From Candidatus Melainabacteria bacterium (GTDB lineage: Bacteria > Cyanobacteriota > Vampirovibrionia > Obscuribacterales > Obscuribacteraceae), in the NCBI GenBank assembly GCA_017307165.1, contig JAFKGK010000003.1:496001-560000 (forward strand): a stretch of DNA of 64,000 nucleotides, in the 5' to 3' direction. Both the position numbers and the translations under genes were made by a program. Under the pieces are notes generated by a model that saw nothing but the letters and a program-made list of their open reading frames with translations, made no database searches and was not told the DNA's origin. This document shows, piece after piece, positions 993-10,106 of this stretch. The number at the start of each line of letters is the position of its first letter. The first letter of the stretch is position 1.

Positions 993-2330
993 TCAGGATT
1001 CGAGGCTTTTTTGCCACTCTTTGGACATGCTGACGATGCCGTCTCGCAGGCTCTTGAGTGATTTTGTACGTTTCATGATATCGGCCACTGATGCTAGATC
1101 ATCTGTATGCATGGCTTCTACTCCCAGAGCCGTCAGACCTGAGATCGAGGCGTCGACAGTATCAAAAAGATTTTTGAGGCTATGCGCGATCTTGCGATTT
1201 AGTTCGGCTGCTTCTTTGTTGATATCTGGAGGCTGATTGCTCGCTTTATCATCTGTATTTACCTGAAAATGGCTTGCCGAGAGTGATTGCTCCTTTTGTG
1301 CGCGCGGCTTGAGCAATTCGCTGGCTTTAAACTTGAGGCTATCTGCCTGGCTCTGAGCCTGAGCTTGCATCTCGCTGGCGCTAGGCATGCCTGGTCTTTG
1401 ACTCGAATCTGAGTTGGGGTCACGATATGGTTGGCCAAACTGTTGCTGGCCCCCGATGGTCGGTGGTTGTGCCTGAGGCTGCGGTCTGGCTACCAAGTGA
1501 CTGATATCAAGATTATCAGCTGTACTCGTACCCTGATCCTGAGACCTGGCTTGCTGCGATGGTTTGCCCTGGGTCTTATCGAACAGACCGTTGCCCAGGT
1601 CGTCTTCGAAGGATCGATCTACCATCTCTTGCTTGGGAGGAGCCTTTAGGTCTTGGGGGTCAAAGACAAATTTTTCGGTCATGTCGGCTTCGCCGCGGAT
1701 CACCTTGACCAGGTGGGTAAAAAATCGTCTTGCCAGGACGGCGAGCGTTTCTTCGGCGAGAGCTTGCCCCGAGATGCTCCACACCATCCGACCGCTGCGA
1801 TTGGTGGTGAGCTTGGCCAGGCGCATCTCTACATAAACTGGAAAATCGGTCTGGTCGGGTCGAAAACCCATTAAATATTCGACTGGTGAAATATAACAAC
1901 GGACCCGATCGTCTTCGCCGCAAAAGACCAGTGCCCATTTGCGGCTGGCAATGTGACCGAGACAGTATTTGATCGGCTTGCCCATGACATGATAGTCGGC
2001 AACGGTCATCATTGCCGATGGCCGCTCGCAATTGATGTAGGATTCGCGAGTGTCCTGGATACGATTGTACTCAAAGGTGTAACGCTTGAGATGATCAAAG
2101 ATCTTGTCCAGAAGCACTGTCATCGGCTCTGATATGGGCGTGTCCAGAGGTCCCATCGACACCGTCTCTTCGGCGTCAGCCATGTCATCGTCCTTGATCG
2201 CCGCAATCCAGCGGCTAGTCTCCTCGCCTCTAAAATTGCCGCCTACCGAATCGATGATCTTGCGTTTCAGATCCTCTTCGGCATTGGCTTGCTGTGCCGG
2301 GGCATTGAGAGGACCCTTGTCGTCTGGCAT
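993..2330 (-). CDS. Hypothetical protein, 445 residues, Gln-rich central linker
   Basis: No family recognised. The first about 230 residues look like a folded domain: mixed alpha/beta, with a segment giving a cytidylate-like pattern 'CLGHIASRKWALVFCGEDDRV' when read in two parts (residues about 124-144). Residues about 260-345 form a Gln/Ser/Pro-rich low-complexity linker, and the C-terminus (about 375-445) is helical with heptad character. No signal peptide or membrane segment is visible, so it is probably cytoplasmic. The ATG is preceded on the minus strand by AAGGAACTCCTCC, giving a plausible ribosome binding site. It stands alone between the tRNA terminator and the DMT transporter. The base composition resembles its neighbours. 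Confidence 0.75.
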   Translation of the reverse strand: MPDDKGPLNAPAQQANAEEDLKRKIIDSVGGNFRGEETSRWIAAIKDDDMADAEETVSMGPLDTPISEPMTVLLDKIFDHLKRYTFEYNRIQDTRESYINCERPSAMMTVADYHVMGKPIKYCLGHIASRKWALVFCGEDDRVRCYISPVEYLMGFRPDQTDFPVYVEMRLAKLTTNRSGRMVWSISGQALAEETLAVLARRFFTHLVKVIRGEADMTEKFVFDPQDLKAPPKQEMVDRSFEDDLGNGLFDKTQGKPSQQARSQDQGTSTADNLDISHLVARPQPQAQPPTIGGQQQFGQPYRDPNSDSSQRPGMPSASEMQAQAQSQADSLKFKASELLKPRAQKEQSLSASHFQVNTDDKASNQPPDINKEAAELNRKIAHSLKNLFDTVDASISGLTALGVEAMHTDDLASVADIMKRTKSLKSLRDGIVSMSKEWQKSLES

Positions 2331-4383: not shown

Positions 4384-6096
4384 ATGTCATTGCAACTAGT
4401 CGAATGCGTACCCAATTTTTCGGAGGGACGCGATAAAAAAGTCATCGATGCTATTTGCGATGCTATCCGATCGGTGTCAGGTGCCAATCTATTGGATGTT
4501 GATCCTGGTATCAGCACCAATCGTACAGTCATTACCATGGTGGGCTCTCCTGATGCCTGCGTTGAGGCTGCGTTTCAAGCGATAGCCGTATCCGCACGCA
4601 TGATCGATATGACCAGGCATCATGGCGAGCATCCCCGTATGGGCGCTTGCGATGTGTGTCCCTTTGTCCCTGTAGCCAATATCACAATGCAAGAATGCGC
4701 CGAGCTCGCAAAAAGGCTTGGAGAGCGTGTTGGCCGTGAACTGGGTGTGCCAGTCTATCTGTATGCAAACGCTGCGACTCGCCCCGATAGATATAGCCTC
4801 GCCGATATCAGGCAGGGCGAATACGAGGGCCTGGCTGAAAAAATGAAGCGACCTGATTTTACGCCTGACTTTGGGCCGAGCACCTTTAATGCCAAAAGTG
4901 GTGCCACTGTAATTGGTGCCAGACCATTTCTCATCGCTTATAACGTCAACCTCAATACCCGTTCTAAAAAGCTGGCCAATGAGATTGCTCTAAATATCCG
5001 TGAGGCCGGAAGGGGCAAGCGAGATGACCAGGGTCAATTGATCAAGGACGATCAGGGTCAGACGGTTAAAATGCCCGGTACTCTCAAAGAAGTCCGTGCT
5101 GTAGGCTGGTTTGTTGAGGAATACAAGCGAGCTCAGGTCTCGATCAATCTGACTGACTATCAAGTCACGTCTATGCATCGTGCCTTTGATGAGGTCCAGG
5201 AACAGGCGGCTAGACTGGGTATGCGTGTGACTGGTTCTGAGATTGTCGGACTTGTGCCGCTTGAGCCGATGCTGGCTGCTGGACGTCACTATCTCGCCAG
5301 GCAGGGCCGTAGTCAGGGGGTGAGTGAAAGAGATTTGATCGAATGTGCAATCCAATCTCTTGGCTTGAGCGATCTTGCACCTTTTGATCCTGATGAAAAA
5401 ATCATTGAATACAAGGTTGCTGCAAAAGGTAAAAATCTGCGGGATATGTCTTTGAGCGACTTTGCCGACGAGCTGGCCAGCGAGTCTCCCGCACCTGGTG
5501 GTGGTAGCACGGCGGCTCTGGCAGGCGCTTTATCGGCAGCTCTTTCGGCCATGGTGGCCAATCTCACTTTTGATAAAAAAGGTTTTGAGGCAAGGCGCCT
5601 GGAGCTCAATCGAGTGGCCAATGGCGCTCAAGACCTAAAAAAATCGCTCCTCCTGCTTGTCGATGAGGATATGCAGGCCTTTAATTCGATCATCGAGGCT
5701 CGCAGGATGCCTAAAGGGTCTCAAGCTGAAAAAGATGCTCGCGCTGAGGCTATTATGGCCGCCAATAAAAGAGCTATCGACTCGCCCATGGCGGTGCTGA
5801 GAATGGTGCGGGTTCTAATGGATCTGGCAGCGGAAATGATAGATAAAGGCAATCCCAACTCCCTCTCGGATGCTGGCGTCGCTGCTCTCATGGCCGCAGC
5901 ATGCGGCGAGGGCGCTTATTACAACGTGCTCATCAATATTGATGGCCTGAAGGACGAGTCCAAAGACTCTGTCAAAGTATATTTATCTGCTTGCAGCGCA
6001 GAAGCTAATGAGCTGATCGAGGCAGTCAGGCTCAAGCAGCATGCCTTGCATAAGGCGGTTTTGGCAAAGATTGGTCCGAGCCTAATAAATGCTTGA
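4384..6096 (+). CDS. ftcD: Fused glutamate formimidoyltransferase / formimidoyl-THF cyclodeaminase
   Basis: Residues 1 to about 300 are the formimidoyltransferase, which moves the formimino group of formimino-glutamate to tetrahydrofolate. The N-terminus LVECVPNFSEGRD and the active-site block RHHGEHPRMGACDVCPF (about residues 78-94) match the family. Residues about 350-570 are the cyclodeaminase (SPAPGGGSTAALAGALSAAL, then a helical bundle), which releases ammonia to give methenyl-THF. The 570-residue fusion matches the animal-type bifunctional enzyme in order and length. AAGGAG (4372-4377) seven bases before the ATG fixes the start. No other histidine-degradation (hut) genes are nearby, so it may serve folate one-carbon supply from elsewhere-encoded histidine catabolism. 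Confidence 0.95.
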   Translation: MSLQLVECVPNFSEGRDKKVIDAICDAIRSVSGANLLDVDPGISTNRTVITMVGSPDACVEAAFQAIAVSARMIDMTRHHGEHPRMGACDVCPFVPVANITMQECAELAKRLGERVGRELGVPVYLYANAATRPDRYSLADIRQGEYEGLAEKMKRPDFTPDFGPSTFNAKSGATVIGARPFLIAYNVNLNTRSKKLANEIALNIREAGRGKRDDQGQLIKDDQGQTVKMPGTLKEVRAVGWFVEEYKRAQVSINLTDYQVTSMHRAFDEVQEQAARLGMRVTGSEIVGLVPLEPMLAAGRHYLARQGRSQGVSERDLIECAIQSLGLSDLAPFDPDEKIIEYKVAAKGKNLRDMSLSDFADELASESPAPGGGSTAALAGALSAALSAMVANLTFDKKGFEARRLELNRVANGAQDLKKSLLLLVDEDMQAFNSIIEARRMPKGSQAEKDARAEAIMAANKRAIDSPMAVLRMVRVLMDLAAEMIDKGNPNSLSDAGVAALMAAACGEGAYYNVLINIDGLKDESKDSVKVYLSACSAEANELIEAVRLKQHALHKAVLAKIGPSLINA

Positions 6097-6163
6097 TTTG
6101 TCGTAATTTGTCTCGGGAAAGGCTACAATCTATAAACTTTTGCAACACACAGCTGGAGGACAA

Positions 6164-7459
6164 ATGGGCACAGCTACCGAAGGTAAGGGTTTTGGATCGG
6201 CCGTCGGCAACGAATGGGAGACTCCGGATTTCCTCAACGCGCAAAAACGCCTTGATAAAGCCGCTCAGGTCTTAAAACTCGACCCGAGTACTGTAGAGCC
6301 CATGCGACATCCCAAGCGTTCGCTATCGGTCGTTATCCCTGCGCGGATGGATGATGGTACGGTGCGTACTTTTATGGGATACCGCGTCCAGCACGATATG
6401 GCCCTGGGACCCGGTAAGGGCGGTGTGCGCTTTCATAATGAGGTCACCCTCGGCGAAGTAGCTTCGATGGCTATGTTGATGACCTGGAAATGCTCCTTGA
6501 TGAATCTCCCCTTCGGTGGCGCGCACGGTGGCATCAGGTTGGATCCAAATAGACTGTCCAAAGGTGAGCTCGAGCGAGTGACCCGTAGATATACATCCGA
6601 GATTCTCGAATTGATCGGACCTAGCCAGGACATAGCAGGACCTGACCTCAATACCGATGAGCAGACGATGGCCTGGATGATGGATACTTATTCGGTCAAT
6701 TCCGGTTATACCGTGCCTTCGGTGGTGACCGGCAAGCCGCAGTCGATTGGTGGCTCTCTGGGTGTTGTGCAATCCACGGGCTATGGAGTTGCATTGGCCG
6801 CTCGTCGAGCTGCTCAATTTGCCAGATTTAAGGGCAATAGTCCCTCGGTCGTCATTCAGGGGCTCGGTCAGGTCGGGTCTTCGGTGGCTCGCAATCTGAG
6901 CAATGCAGGCTTCAAGGTCGTTGGTGTGTCTGACGCGCAGGGTGGATTGTTTAACAAAAATGGTCTCGATATAGATAAGCTCATGGAGCATATCGACAGC
7001 AAAGGCAATATGTACGAATACACCGAGGCAGACAAGGTGACCAACGAAGAATTGTTGGAACTGGATTGCGATATTCTCGCACCATGCGCGGTGGCCAATC
7101 AGTTGCACGCTGGCAACGCTGATCGGATCAAATGCAAAGTGGTTGTCGAAGGTGCCAATAGCCCTACGACGCCTAATGCTGATGATGTGCTCGATGGCCG
7201 GGGCATCATTGTCGTGCCGGATATCCTCGCCAACGCTGCTGGTGTGACTGTCGGATATTTCGAGTGGGTTCAGGGACTTATGCGTCTTTTGTGGACCGAG
7301 GCCGAGGTGCTGGAGCGTCTCGAAGGCCTGATGAACAATGTCTGCACCAGAGTCTTTGACAAGGCCGAGGAAAAGAAGGTCACCCTGCGAATGTCCGCAA
7401 TGTCTCTGGCCGTGGAGCGCATAGTCGAAGCCCGCAAATTGCGGGGCTTATATCCTTAA
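6164..7459 (+). CDS. Glu/Leu/Phe/Val dehydrogenase-family protein with altered catalytic lysine
   Basis: Full-length (431 residues) homologue of glutamate dehydrogenase, the NAD(P)-linked deamination of glutamate. It has the substrate-domain blocks GPGKGGVRFHNEVT and MTWKCSLMNLPFGG, the aspartate block DIAGPDLNTDE and a Rossmann GLGQVGSSVARN motif. The catalytic lysine of the GGAKGG motif is replaced by histidine: the protein reads PFGGAHGGIRLDP, with His at residue 121 (codon CAC, 6524-6526). The other two active-site lysines are kept. TGGAGGA (6154-6160) places the start at ATG 6164 rather than the earlier in-frame TTG at 6140. Either it is a regulatory or specialised paralogue, or its chemistry differs. 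It is alone, 67 bases after ftcD. Confidence 0.88.
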   Translation: MGTATEGKGFGSAVGNEWETPDFLNAQKRLDKAAQVLKLDPSTVEPMRHPKRSLSVVIPARMDDGTVRTFMGYRVQHDMALGPGKGGVRFHNEVTLGEVASMAMLMTWKCSLMNLPFGGAHGGIRLDPNRLSKGELERVTRRYTSEILELIGPSQDIAGPDLNTDEQTMAWMMDTYSVNSGYTVPSVVTGKPQSIGGSLGVVQSTGYGVALAARRAAQFARFKGNSPSVVIQGLGQVGSSVARNLSNAGFKVVGVSDAQGGLFNKNGLDIDKLMEHIDSKGNMYEYTEADKVTNEELLELDCDILAPCAVANQLHAGNADRIKCKVVVEGANSPTTPNADDVLDGRGIIVVPDILANAAGVTVGYFEWVQGLMRLLWTEAEVLERLEGLMNNVCTRVFDKAEEKKVTLRMSAMSLAVERIVEARKLRGLYP

Positions 7460-7468
7460 GTCCAAATC

Positions 7469-8422
7469 TTAGATGCGGAGCGCCTCGTGCACGTCAATGC
7501 GCGAGGCGTATTTTTGAACGTCCGATTCGCCAAGAATGCCATCTTCGCTTACTAATCCCGAAACTAGGTTGAAGGGTACCAGATCAAATTGGTGGTTTAG
7601 AACGGCTACTCCTTTTGGTGCTGCGTCCCAGACCTCGTTGCCAGGCCTTTCATGTTTTTCAAATTCGAACATCCGCTCATCACTCACAAATTTTTCTGTG
7701 CCTGAGAATGCATAAAGAGGTACATTCAATTCGCGGCAGGCTATGGCGAGAGCCCAGGAGCCTACCTTATTGACGACTCCAGGAGATGCTATGCAGTCGC
7801 AGCCCATAAAGGCCGCGCAGCAATTGCCCAGCACCAGGCCCATGGCGTTGTCAAAAGTATAAATGACCTCTATATTGCCAGCCGCTAGTCGAGAGGCCAA
7901 TTTGCGCCCCTCCATCGAGGGTCTGGCCTCTGTCGTAACTACCCTAAAATATCTCCCTCTGGCTCTTGCATTGAGTAAACAGCTGACCACCGTCGAGCTA
8001 AAAGAATAAGCAAAGACGAGACCGCCTGGTTCGATCAGGTCGTATGCCAGATCGGCTATCTTTGATGCCGAATCACATAGGCGTTTTTCGAATGCTGTGA
8101 GTGCCTGATCGACCTTGTCGATCAAAGAAGGGACATCATTTGCCTGATCCGAAGCCAAAAGGACCTGATTGGCCAATTGAAATAATGGCGCCATGGCAGG
8201 TTGGCAATCAACGAGAGCTTTAGAAGCTACGATCAGCGTCTCTTTTGCCTCGTCAAGAGAGTCGTCCTTTACCATGGCTGTGAGCGCTTGGTAGAGAGTA
8301 ATGGCTCTCAATGCCTGTTCTGCTGCTCCTGACATCAAGTCGTCTCTGATCGGCTGGATCAGTGACTCGATTTTGTATTGATAGTTGGCGCCTTCTTGAT
8401 CCTGATTGGTAGACATCGGCAT
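7469..8422 (-). CDS. Initiation factor 2B alpha/beta/delta-like protein (sugar-phosphate isomerase fold)
   Basis: The C-terminal two thirds match the eIF-2B/methylthioribose-1-phosphate isomerase/ribose-1,5-bisphosphate isomerase superfamily: YSFSSTVVSCLL, VVTTEARPSMEGRKLA, YTFDNAMGLVL, FMGCDCIASPGVVNKVGSW and PLYAFSGTEKF follow in the usual order. The CDS is short (317 residues) and no adjacent MTR or ribose-phosphate gene helps to choose a substrate. The exact reaction is therefore unknown. Two starts are possible, 8422 and 8416 (ATGCCGATG); neither has a strong ribosome binding site. The 3' end is 9 bases from the convergent GDH-like gene. It is 22 bases downstream of the radical SAM gene, so probably the same transcript. 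Confidence 0.8.
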   Translation of the reverse strand: MPMSTNQDQEGANYQYKIESLIQPIRDDLMSGAAEQALRAITLYQALTAMVKDDSLDEAKETLIVASKALVDCQPAMAPLFQLANQVLLASDQANDVPSLIDKVDQALTAFEKRLCDSASKIADLAYDLIEPGGLVFAYSFSSTVVSCLLNARARGRYFRVVTTEARPSMEGRKLASRLAAGNIEVIYTFDNAMGLVLGNCCAAFMGCDCIASPGVVNKVGSWALAIACRELNVPLYAFSGTEKFVSDERMFEFEKHERPGNEVWDAAPKGVAVLNHQFDLVPFNLVSGLVSEDGILGESDVQKYASRIDVHEALRI

Positions 8423-8444: not shown

Positions 8445-10106
8445 CTATTTTAGCTCCTTGACCGAGGTTTGGGCTAACAATTTAGCTTGATCGGAGTGCC
8501 TGAGCAGTGTTCCTTCTTTTTGTGGGGGAGATATGTGCTGCCAGGGCAGGATCTCGTCGACTTCGATATCTCGGAAGGCAAAAAATTGAAGAGCGGGCGC
8601 TCCCTCAGGAAGATTGCGGAGGGCTCGCTTCCAGTCGCCGACACTGCCTTGTGTTTTGGCGATTTCTCTCATTAGCGGGGCCAGTCTGCGATCCCCTCTG
8701 GAAATCAATCCCTGTATGTCGCTCCAGTTATGGCTTTCAGGTCGTACCTCGATACCTAATTTTGATAAATGCTTGCGCATATATTCCAGTTTTGCTTGTG
8801 CTCTTTTGTCCCTGCCAGACCATTGAAATGGTGTTTGTGCTTTTGGCACAAATGAAGAGACGCCAAAAACGAAGCGCAGGCGCTTGTGCTTTTTTTTAAG
8901 AGCTGCCATCAAGGCCACAGTTTGTTCTAAGTCCGCATCAGTCTCATATGGCAAACCAACAATGCCATAAAATTTGACACCTTGCAGGCCGCCCTCATCG
9001 ATTAGCCGCACTGCTTCAAAAATTTCATCCTGGCTAAGGTTTTTTTTCATTATCTGCCGCAGTCTTTCAGAGCCAGACTCGATTGCGATGGTGACAGATT
9101 TTTGTCCCAGCGTCTTGAGCATTTTGACGATGGATGGCGTCAAAGTATCTGCTCTCACCGAGGCGATAGTCAGGTCGATGTCTGGACGCTCTTCAAATTT
9201 TGCTACCAGATTTTCAAATAGAGGATGCTCCGTGACTGAGGGGCCCAGCAACCCGATCCGCTTTGTATGCTGCAGGGCAAAATCTACTTTTTCCACAATA
9301 GTATCGATGGCGGTGGCGCGAAATGGCCTTGTCAGATAGCTTGCAAGGCAAAATCTACATTCTTGTGGGCAGGAGCGCACTACTTCTATCAAGAAGGTAT
9401 TGCTCCAGGTCGTCTGATCGCTCAGGATCTGGGTGTGTACTGCATATCCGTCAGGTGCCCTGAAAATCTCTTTCTCCACTGATGGTGGCACGTCTTTTTG
9501 TATAGGATCGATGGATGATATCGCTTGTGATACCGGATCGTAGGCAACTGTATAAAGAGAAGGTACATAAAGGCCTTTCACTTTTGACAGGGCGAGCAGT
9601 TGCTCTTGCTTGTCCGGCAACTGTCTTGCAGACTGCCAGGCGTCGAGAAATGCAGGAACCGACGACTCGGCATCTCCCAACAATATGACGTCAAAAAAGT
9701 CCGCAAACGGCTCTGGGTTGGCTGAAAGTACCGGCCCACCGCCAAAGATCAGTGGACATTCGTCCCCGGCTTGCAGTCTTTCTTGTGGAGTGAGGGGCAC
9801 GCGGTGCTTTTGCAGGATAGTGGAGATGTTGATGAAGTCCAACTCCCAGGCAACTGTGAAGCCTAGCAAGTCGATGGTCTCCATTCCTTGTTCGGCAATG
9901 TCGAGAAAGCCACGTTTGACCATGGTGTCTGGACGAGACTCCATCAGCCACCAGACCAACTGGTAGCCAAGACCAGACATGCCTACCTGGTAAGTGGATG
10001 GAAAATACCAGCCTATATCTATAGTTTGATGATGATCTGGCCCACTCAGCCCCCTTGCTTGGTCTTTTGGGGGGAATGGAGCCAGCCGTGTTTCCTTGCC
10101 TAACAA
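8445..10106 (-). CDS. Radical SAM protein of the fused B12-binding-like type (TIGR03960-like)
   Basis: A 553-residue protein. Residues about 30-160 are a cobalamin-binding-like domain (FPSTYQVGMSGLGYQLVWW; IFGGGPVLSANPEPFADFFD). A radical SAM core follows, with the [4Fe-4S] cysteines C246, C250 and C253 (CPQECRFC). The order matches the uncharacterised fused rSAM family that usually has a separate or fused C-terminal DUF2344 domain involved in tRNA or cofactor modification; that second domain is not seen here. The ORF starts with TTG and has no clear Shine-Dalgarno, so the N-terminus is uncertain. A terminator lies between it and the next upstream gene. Confidence 0.85.
   Translation of the reverse strand: MLGKETRLAPFPPKDQARGLSGPDHHQTIDIGWYFPSTYQVGMSGLGYQLVWWLMESRPDTMVKRGFLDIAEQGMETIDLLGFTVAWELDFINISTILQKHRVPLTPQERLQAGDECPLIFGGGPVLSANPEPFADFFDVILLGDAESSVPAFLDAWQSARQLPDKQEQLLALSKVKGLYVPSLYTVAYDPVSQAISSIDPIQKDVPPSVEKEIFRAPDGYAVHTQILSDQTTWSNTFLIEVVRSCPQECRFCLASYLTRPFRATAIDTIVEKVDFALQHTKRIGLLGPSVTEHPLFENLVAKFEERPDIDLTIASVRADTLTPSIVKMLKTLGQKSVTIAIESGSERLRQIMKKNLSQDEIFEAVRLIDEGGLQGVKFYGIVGLPYETDADLEQTVALMAALKKKHKRLRFVFGVSSFVPKAQTPFQWSGRDKRAQAKLEYMRKHLSKLGIEVRPESHNWSDIQGLISRGDRRLAPLMREIAKTQGSVGDWKRALRNLPEGAPALQFFAFRDIEVDEILPWQHISPPQKEGTLLRHSDQAKLLAQTSVKELK

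Follow-up and report, generated by a model that had tools for sequence, protein, structure and literature searches.

Can a glutamate dehydrogenase (GDH) chain that has lost its catalytic lysine still be of use to the cell, and in what capacity? The question is raised by a gene in the window (the whole stretch of 64,000 nucleotides of Obscuribacterales DNA that was analysed), which encodes a GDH homologue with histidine at the position of the catalytic lysine. A precedent exists in Thermus thermophilus, where GdhA is described, in the excerpted text of PMC9570180, as a catalytically inactive regulatory subunit of a heteromeric GDH. The original prediction offered two roles for the protein: a regulatory subunit of this kind, or an enzyme for a different substrate.

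The H-Type Gene and Its Product

The GDH paralogue, referred to here as the H-type (a pseudo-GDH), is encoded on the + strand by an open reading frame that runs from an ATG at 6164 to a stop at 7459 and specifies 431 amino acids. A ribosome-binding site, GGAGG, is found at 6155..6159 (+); a second open reading frame call starts at an in-frame TTG at 6140, upstream of this ATG. Translation bears out the reading of the family motif on which the original prediction was built: canonical GDHs have GGAKGG where the window protein has GGAHGG (6515-6532), the codon CAC at 6524..6526 (+) placing His121 at the catalytic lysine position in the sequence and in the alignments. Lys85 of GPGKGG, Lys109 of TWK, and Asp161 of GPD are intact in the sequence, as had been claimed.

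Both GDH domains, PF02812 and PF00208, are recognized above their curated cut-offs (176 and 242 bits, respectively, versus 25.3 and 23.4), and the AlphaFold2 model is a complete GDH chain (pLDDT 83, pTM 0.82). All 50 PDB rows listed for this model are GDH-family chains or contain such a chain within a complex. The structure comparison does not discriminate among GDH types: chain 3aoe_D, taken from its length as a Thermus GdhA chain, ranks 16 and lies near many other chains, and the model is a normal GDH. By sequence, the top PDB relatives are Thermotoga-type GDH chains. A limited set of open-access literature yielded no paper on this H-type protein.

Loss of the Catalytic Lysine across the Order

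The H-type is found in 47 of 53 Obscuribacterales genomes (G000 counted), as a full gene in 45 and as a fragment in two (G015 and G032); none of the six genomes that lack it exceeds 84% completeness. Assignment of a match to the H-type or to its closest paralogue, the lysine-bearing K-type discussed below, follows whichever of the two queries scores higher. Residue 121 can be read in all 47 genomes and is His in 45, Gln in two (G012 and G030), and Lys in none, so that none of these H-type proteins has the GGxKGG lysine of a catalytic GDH; the first 30 H-type rows (the window protein and L005-L033) have 28 His and two Gln. The comparison with relatives that the original prediction called for thus finds the lysine loss conserved, and the sequencing error at CAC that it named as a way to be wrong is ruled out by the absence of Lys from all 47 genomes.

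At this position, the 120 highest-ranking of 7872 database hits (counting the window protein itself) have His (106), Gln (12), Asn (one), or Lys (one). The sole Lys occurs in P0073, which differs locally from all the others and may be a chimaera. Of 194 genomes sampled from the phylum, all but one gave no H-type match at E 1e-136, and the four class-level sequences read from the branch that holds the H- and K-types are K-type, not H-type. Within the sequences searched, the H-type clade is therefore restricted to its own order; rare H-type proteins elsewhere are possible, the database proteins read being the best 120 of 7872.

Active-Site and Cofactor Positions

Eighty positions are invariant (at least 97%) in 48 canonical GDH rows, and seven of these (121, 159, 201, 234, 236, 359, and 364) keep the canonical residue in fewer than 20% of the 33 H-type rows. 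Across the H-type rows, Lys121 becomes His or Gln, Ala159 becomes Gly, Arg201 becomes mostly hydrophobic, Phe234 becomes Leu, Asn236 becomes Gln and others, Gly359 becomes Ala or Ser, and Ser364 becomes Gly. Positions 121 and 364 belong to the substrate site, and 234 and 236 to the dinucleotide loop; positions 159, 201, and 359 are placed by us in or near the cleft. Ala159 of canonical GDHs has a role in the pocket for the substrate side chain; GDH numbering of Clostridium symbiosum also served for assigning positions. On the + strand of the window these positions read Gly159 (6638..6640; Gly also in T. thermophilus GdhA), Val201 (6764..6766), Leu234-Gly-Gln236 within the loop GLGQVG (6863..6871; canonical GFGNVG), and Ala359 (7238..7240). 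The H-type is more than an isolated Lys-to-His change, since Ser364, Ala159, Gly359, and Arg201 are altered too; these further changes had been missed by the original prediction.

For E. coli GDH, the excerpt of PMC8784811 gives K126 as the catalytic lysine, K92 and S380 as γ-carboxylate residues, and K116 and N348 as α-carboxylate residues; by motif and spacing, K126, K92, S380, K116, and N348 correspond to H-type positions 121, 85, 364, 109, and 332. The γ-carboxylate residues are split in the window protein, which has Lys85 (6416..6418, +) and Gly at 364 (7253..7255, +), the latter replacement being found in 31 of 33 H-type rows with the window protein included. Lys85 is kept in 41 of the 47 H-type genomes and lost in six, with Ala in G002 and G005, Met in G007 and G033, and Leu in G023 and G064. 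The H-type proteins L034, L055, L092, and L191, from genera g8 and g24, are among those with Leu or Met in place of Lys85 in addition to the loss of Lys121. The α-carboxylate residues and the catalytic aspartate are retained almost throughout: Lys109 (6488..6490, +) in 33/33 rows, Asn332 in 32/33, and Asp161 (6644..6646, +) in 33/33. The GxGxxG glycines are also present in 33/33 rows, as is Cys308 (7085..7087, +), which is Ala in the sister K-type.

A rival reading takes the H-type for an active dehydrogenase with another substrate or base, in which His121, together with Asp161, would replace the lysine and a pocket enlarged by Gly159 and Gly364 would take another amino or oxo acid. Such an enzyme would fit the persistence of Asp161, Lys109, Asn332, the loop glycines, and (in most genomes) Lys85, as well as the alteration of pocket positions 159 and 364 and the occurrence of Cys308 in L004, a distant leucine/phenylalanine-dehydrogenase-like protein of the window genome. 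We nevertheless regard it as unlikely. Glutamine cannot replace lysine in an acid-base role, and the presence of Gln121 in two genomes (and in 12 of the best 120 database proteins, with Asn in one), together with the loss of Lys85 in six genomes, speaks against dehydrogenation through the established mechanism; the cofactor loop is changed as well. L004 itself keeps the lysine (in the motif GGGKAV), so a change of substrate alone does not explain the loss. For the different-substrate role put forward originally, the altered pocket speaks in favor, and Gln121 and the lost Lys85 speak against.

Residues of the Leucine-Activation Site

In the excerpt of PMC9570180, the leucine site of T. thermophilus GDH comprises Arg135, an aspartate printed as D166 (residue 167 when counted on the PDB chain), and the C-terminal tail. 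By alignment, all three elements are present on the + strand of the H-type gene, as Arg142 (6587..6589), Asp174 (6683..6685), and a C-terminal RGLYP with Arg427, Tyr430, and Pro431 (7442..7456). Arg142, Asp174, Arg427, and Pro431 are found in 33/33 H-type rows and Tyr430 in 31/33, with Phe in the other two; the site is also intact in the H-type of G005. The same residues are retained in 24/24 K-type rows, and proteins of the type of L003, another paralogue of the window genome, have lost Arg142 and the C-terminal tail. Since the leucine-site residues are ancestral to this GDH branch, their retention is weaker evidence for a regulatory function than their gain would be.

Descent and Selection

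All 33 H-type rows fall into a single clade (support 100/100) in a 90-row tree, where the sister group consists of 16 K-type rows from the order (93/88, a branch that is not starred). H-type, K-type, and four class-level K rows together form a branch (100/98) that leaves the Thermaceae GdhA proteins outside. The tree omits L001 (which equals the window protein), L004, L070, and L071 (too distant), the fragments L054, L056, and L057, and the partial GdhA of L106. Forcing the H-type and GdhA into one clade is rejected modestly (AU p 0.035), the GdhA group here and in the site comparison below excluding L108_A, a Deinococcales GdhA-like protein that has kept the lysine. Separation from GdhA in the tree indicates that the catalytic lysine was lost in parallel, and a position next to ordinary GDHs points to a duplication near the base of the order; the H-type was most likely born there as a copy of an ordinary GDH.

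Orthology of the H-type with Thermus GdhA is not supported by the tree, which puts the two in separate clades, and the same AU test counts modestly against it.

Nei-Gojobori dN/dS values of 0.010-0.056, obtained for nine of ten pairs (synonymous sites in the remaining pair are saturated), place the H-type gene under strong purifying selection; for the K-type, the same ten pairs give 0 to 0.054. H-type proteins diverge more than K-type proteins in 189/190 genome pairs, by 1.79-fold on average, as might be anticipated of a duplicate that is decaying without function. That explanation is very improbable, however: 47 of 53 genomes carry the gene, no internal stop occurs in any match listed, and the dN/dS values are those just given.

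GDH Paralogues in the Same Genomes

The window genome has four GDH-family members: the H-type itself, L002 (57% identity to the H-type), L003 (42%), and L004 (29%); a PF02812 search also yields four matches. L002 is the K-type and supplies the second, normal GDH for which the original prediction had advised a search. Active-site residues of the K-type are canonical in 16/16 rows, and in 24/24 once eight more rows are read. The window genome thus holds an intact potential partner for the H-type, although the two are not adjacent in the manner of the Thermus genes: the H-type is on contig C11 and the K-type on C29.

A K-type gene accompanies the H-type in 43 of 47 genomes, in two of the 43 as a fragment. 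Both genes are near-universal in the order, which makes their co-occurrence weak evidence for a partnership. No recognised K-type match was obtained at E 1e-120 in G014, G015, and G017, and the H-type is the only GDH-family match in G005 (90% complete, 20 contigs), a genome that therefore argues against an obligate partnership. Domain I of GDH forms the hexamer contacts; no extra conservation of this domain is detected between the H- and K-types, the ratio of domain II to domain I divergence being 1.19 against a baseline of 1.21 for the K-type versus class-level K sequences.

The H-type protein of G005 (L037) has Ala85, His121, Ser159, Asp332, and Ser364. G005 offers a natural test case for stand-alone H-type function.

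Gene Neighbourhood and Histidine Degradation

Directly upstream of the H-type gene, with 67 bases between and no terminator-like site in the gap, lies a formiminotransferase-cyclodeaminase gene of the ftcD type (4384..6096, +; NCBIfam FtcD above cut-off, with Pfam FTCD_N, FTCD, and FTCD_C). From this arrangement, the two genes probably form a two-gene operon. A terminator-like stem with a T run is found 3' of the H-type gene at 7480..7509 (+), which is weak evidence by itself as one such site was found against a mean of 3.4 in shuffled sequences.

In 36 of 47 H-type genomes ftcD is the upstream neighbour on the same strand within about 400 bases. Elsewhere it lies farther off on the same contig (G067, G032, and G010), far apart (G064 and G023), on the opposite strand (G036), or on a different contig (G007, G070, and G037); the H-type gene of G007 starts 320 bases from the contig start, so linkage is not readable there. 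No ftcD gene was found in G033 or in G034, where the upstream flank ends at a contig end. The FtcD proteins of G001, G002, and G005 match the formiminotransferase part only. In the four genomes of g8 and g24 whose H-type lacks Lys85, ftcD is away from the H-type gene (G007, G023, and G064) or was not found (G033).

Formiminotransferase yields glutamate and cyclodeaminase yields ammonia. HutU matches occur in 45/53 genomes of the order, 43 of them above cut-off, and the window genome has one aromatic-amino-acid-lyase gene (PF00221, the HutH family); the presence of these genes makes histidine degradation plausible in these bacteria.

The linkage to ftcD could also mean that the H-type is a stand-alone pseudoenzyme that binds glutamate or formiminoglutamate and acts on FtcD or a regulator with no GDH partner. 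The same-strand linkage in 36 genomes and the frequency of hutU are in keeping with such a protein, as is G005, in which ftcD and the H-type gene are adjacent and other GDH-family matches are lacking; binding of a GDH to a non-metabolic protein has a precedent in the Staphylococcus YwlG-HPF pair (excerpt of PMC9522360). Set against this, the H-type is kept in G023 and G064, where ftcD is far apart, and in G033, where it was not found, and the leucine-site residues are intact, those of G005 included. We judge this role improbable, and a little more so than that of an active dehydrogenase.

On the other side of the H-type gene, and convergent with it, is an eIF-2B/IF-2B family gene (7469-8422, - strand; PF01008, 138.5 bits) that reaches no NCBIfam cut-off; a match to this gene was seen close to the H-type gene in 16 of 19 neighbourhoods read from relatives. 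At 8445-10106 (-) lies the gene of a B12-binding-type radical SAM protein that resembles TIGR03960 with 285 of 462 bits, below cut-off. A 445-amino acid protein without a Pfam match is encoded at 993-2330 (-) and is matched in the same neighbourhood in several relatives.

A Proposed Regulatory Role

The reading that we favor, with rather more confidence for it than against, is that the H-type is a non-catalytic regulatory subunit that assembles with the intact K-type GDH (L002) of the same genome. The fold, the leucine-site tail, and some ligand contacts are kept while the chemistry is probably removed, and it is this combination that suggests regulation. As far as comparative sequence evidence goes, a regulatory pseudo-GDH subunit that arose independently of Thermus is likely the best reading. 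Of the two roles originally proposed, the regulatory one is the better supported: the conserved lysine loss, the purifying selection, the presence of the K-type alongside it in 43 of 47 genomes, and the parallel in Thermus all stand behind it. By the tree, the H-type is not an orthologue of Thermus GdhA.

Under this regulatory reading, the H-type could perform neither reductive amination nor deamination in the usual GDH manner, and it would be built into hexamers together with K-type subunits. The activity of the latter would change with a ligand, which may be a glutamate-like molecule bound in the inactive cleft or leucine bound at the interface site. Co-expression with ftcD could couple control of GDH to histidine breakdown, the last step of which would give glutamate and, via the fused cyclodeaminase, ammonia. 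The fuller version of the proposal, which we consider less likely than not, is that this is a second, independently evolved two-subunit GDH in which a lysine-less sensor subunit, co-expressed with ftcD, makes activity track the glutamate or formiminoglutamate that comes from histidine breakdown.

If the regulatory reading is true, loss of the catalytic lysine has made a regulatory GDH subunit at least two times, in the Thermaceae and in a distant order, and the companion changes common to both losses would constitute a natural replicate of the conversion of an enzyme subunit into a sensor. The altered positions would also provide a sequence signature for further pseudo-GDHs, several of which are now annotated as glutamate dehydrogenase, and the linkage to ftcD would suggest a route that links histidine degradation with glutamate oxidation.

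Comparison with Known Systems

Thermotoga maritima GDH (PDB 1b26) is among the solved structures closest to the H-type by sequence; in the alignment it has the canonical lysine and serine, and the H-type differs at both. The K-type GDH, the sister clade of the H-type, has the same C-terminal RGLYP but differs in its canonical active site, its slower evolution, and, in the window genome, its separate locus. L004 belongs to the same superfamily at 25-29% identity and has Cys308 in common with the H-type, and its Leu at position 85 recurs in the H-type proteins of G023 and G064; unlike the H-type, L004 retains the catalytic lysine.

The closest functional parallel is with Thermus GdhA. Thermaceae gdhB loci were fetched with the GdhB chain as query, and gdhA was taken as the GDH-family gene directly upstream, an identity supported by the match of the gene at L099 to chain 3aoe_E. 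The catalytic lysine is Ala in all eight Thermaceae GdhA rows with letters at that position. T. thermophilus GdhA (3aoe_E) reads GGAAGG, ILGPD, and GLGQVG, which correspond to Ala121, Gly159, Leu234, and Gln236. Gly159 is present in four Thermus GdhA rows, Lys85 is lost (to Leu or Ile) in three Meiothermus GdhA rows and L107, and Gly364 appears in the GdhA of L107 and in the partial sequence from L106. Four of the seven positions changed in the H-type are also changed in T. thermophilus GdhA (16/80 changed in GdhA; P 0.027), a comparison with this one protein that was picked after the GLGQVG loop had been noticed; against the Thermaceae GdhA proteins as a group, the overlap is two sites and not significant (P 0.14).

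At L108, a Deinococcales gdhA-like gene (1492-2868) beside gdhB encodes GGAKGG, with the lysine, and falls on the GdhA branch. From the sequences compared, the lysine of GdhA seems to have been lost within the Thermaceae.

The H-type and T. thermophilus GdhA resemble one another in that each is an otherwise full chain with the GDH fold that has lost the lysine, has Gly159, Leu234, and Gln236, and coexists with an intact GDH in the genome; T. thermophilus GdhA (PDB 3AOE chain E) keeps the leucine-site Arg and Asp and a C-terminal RG.YP, and the H-type does likewise. The two differ at position 121, which is His or Gln in the H-type rather than Ala, and at Ser364, which the H-type has lost in addition. 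They differ also in setting: Thermus gdhA stands beside its catalytic partner gdhB, whereas the H-type gene stands behind ftcD.
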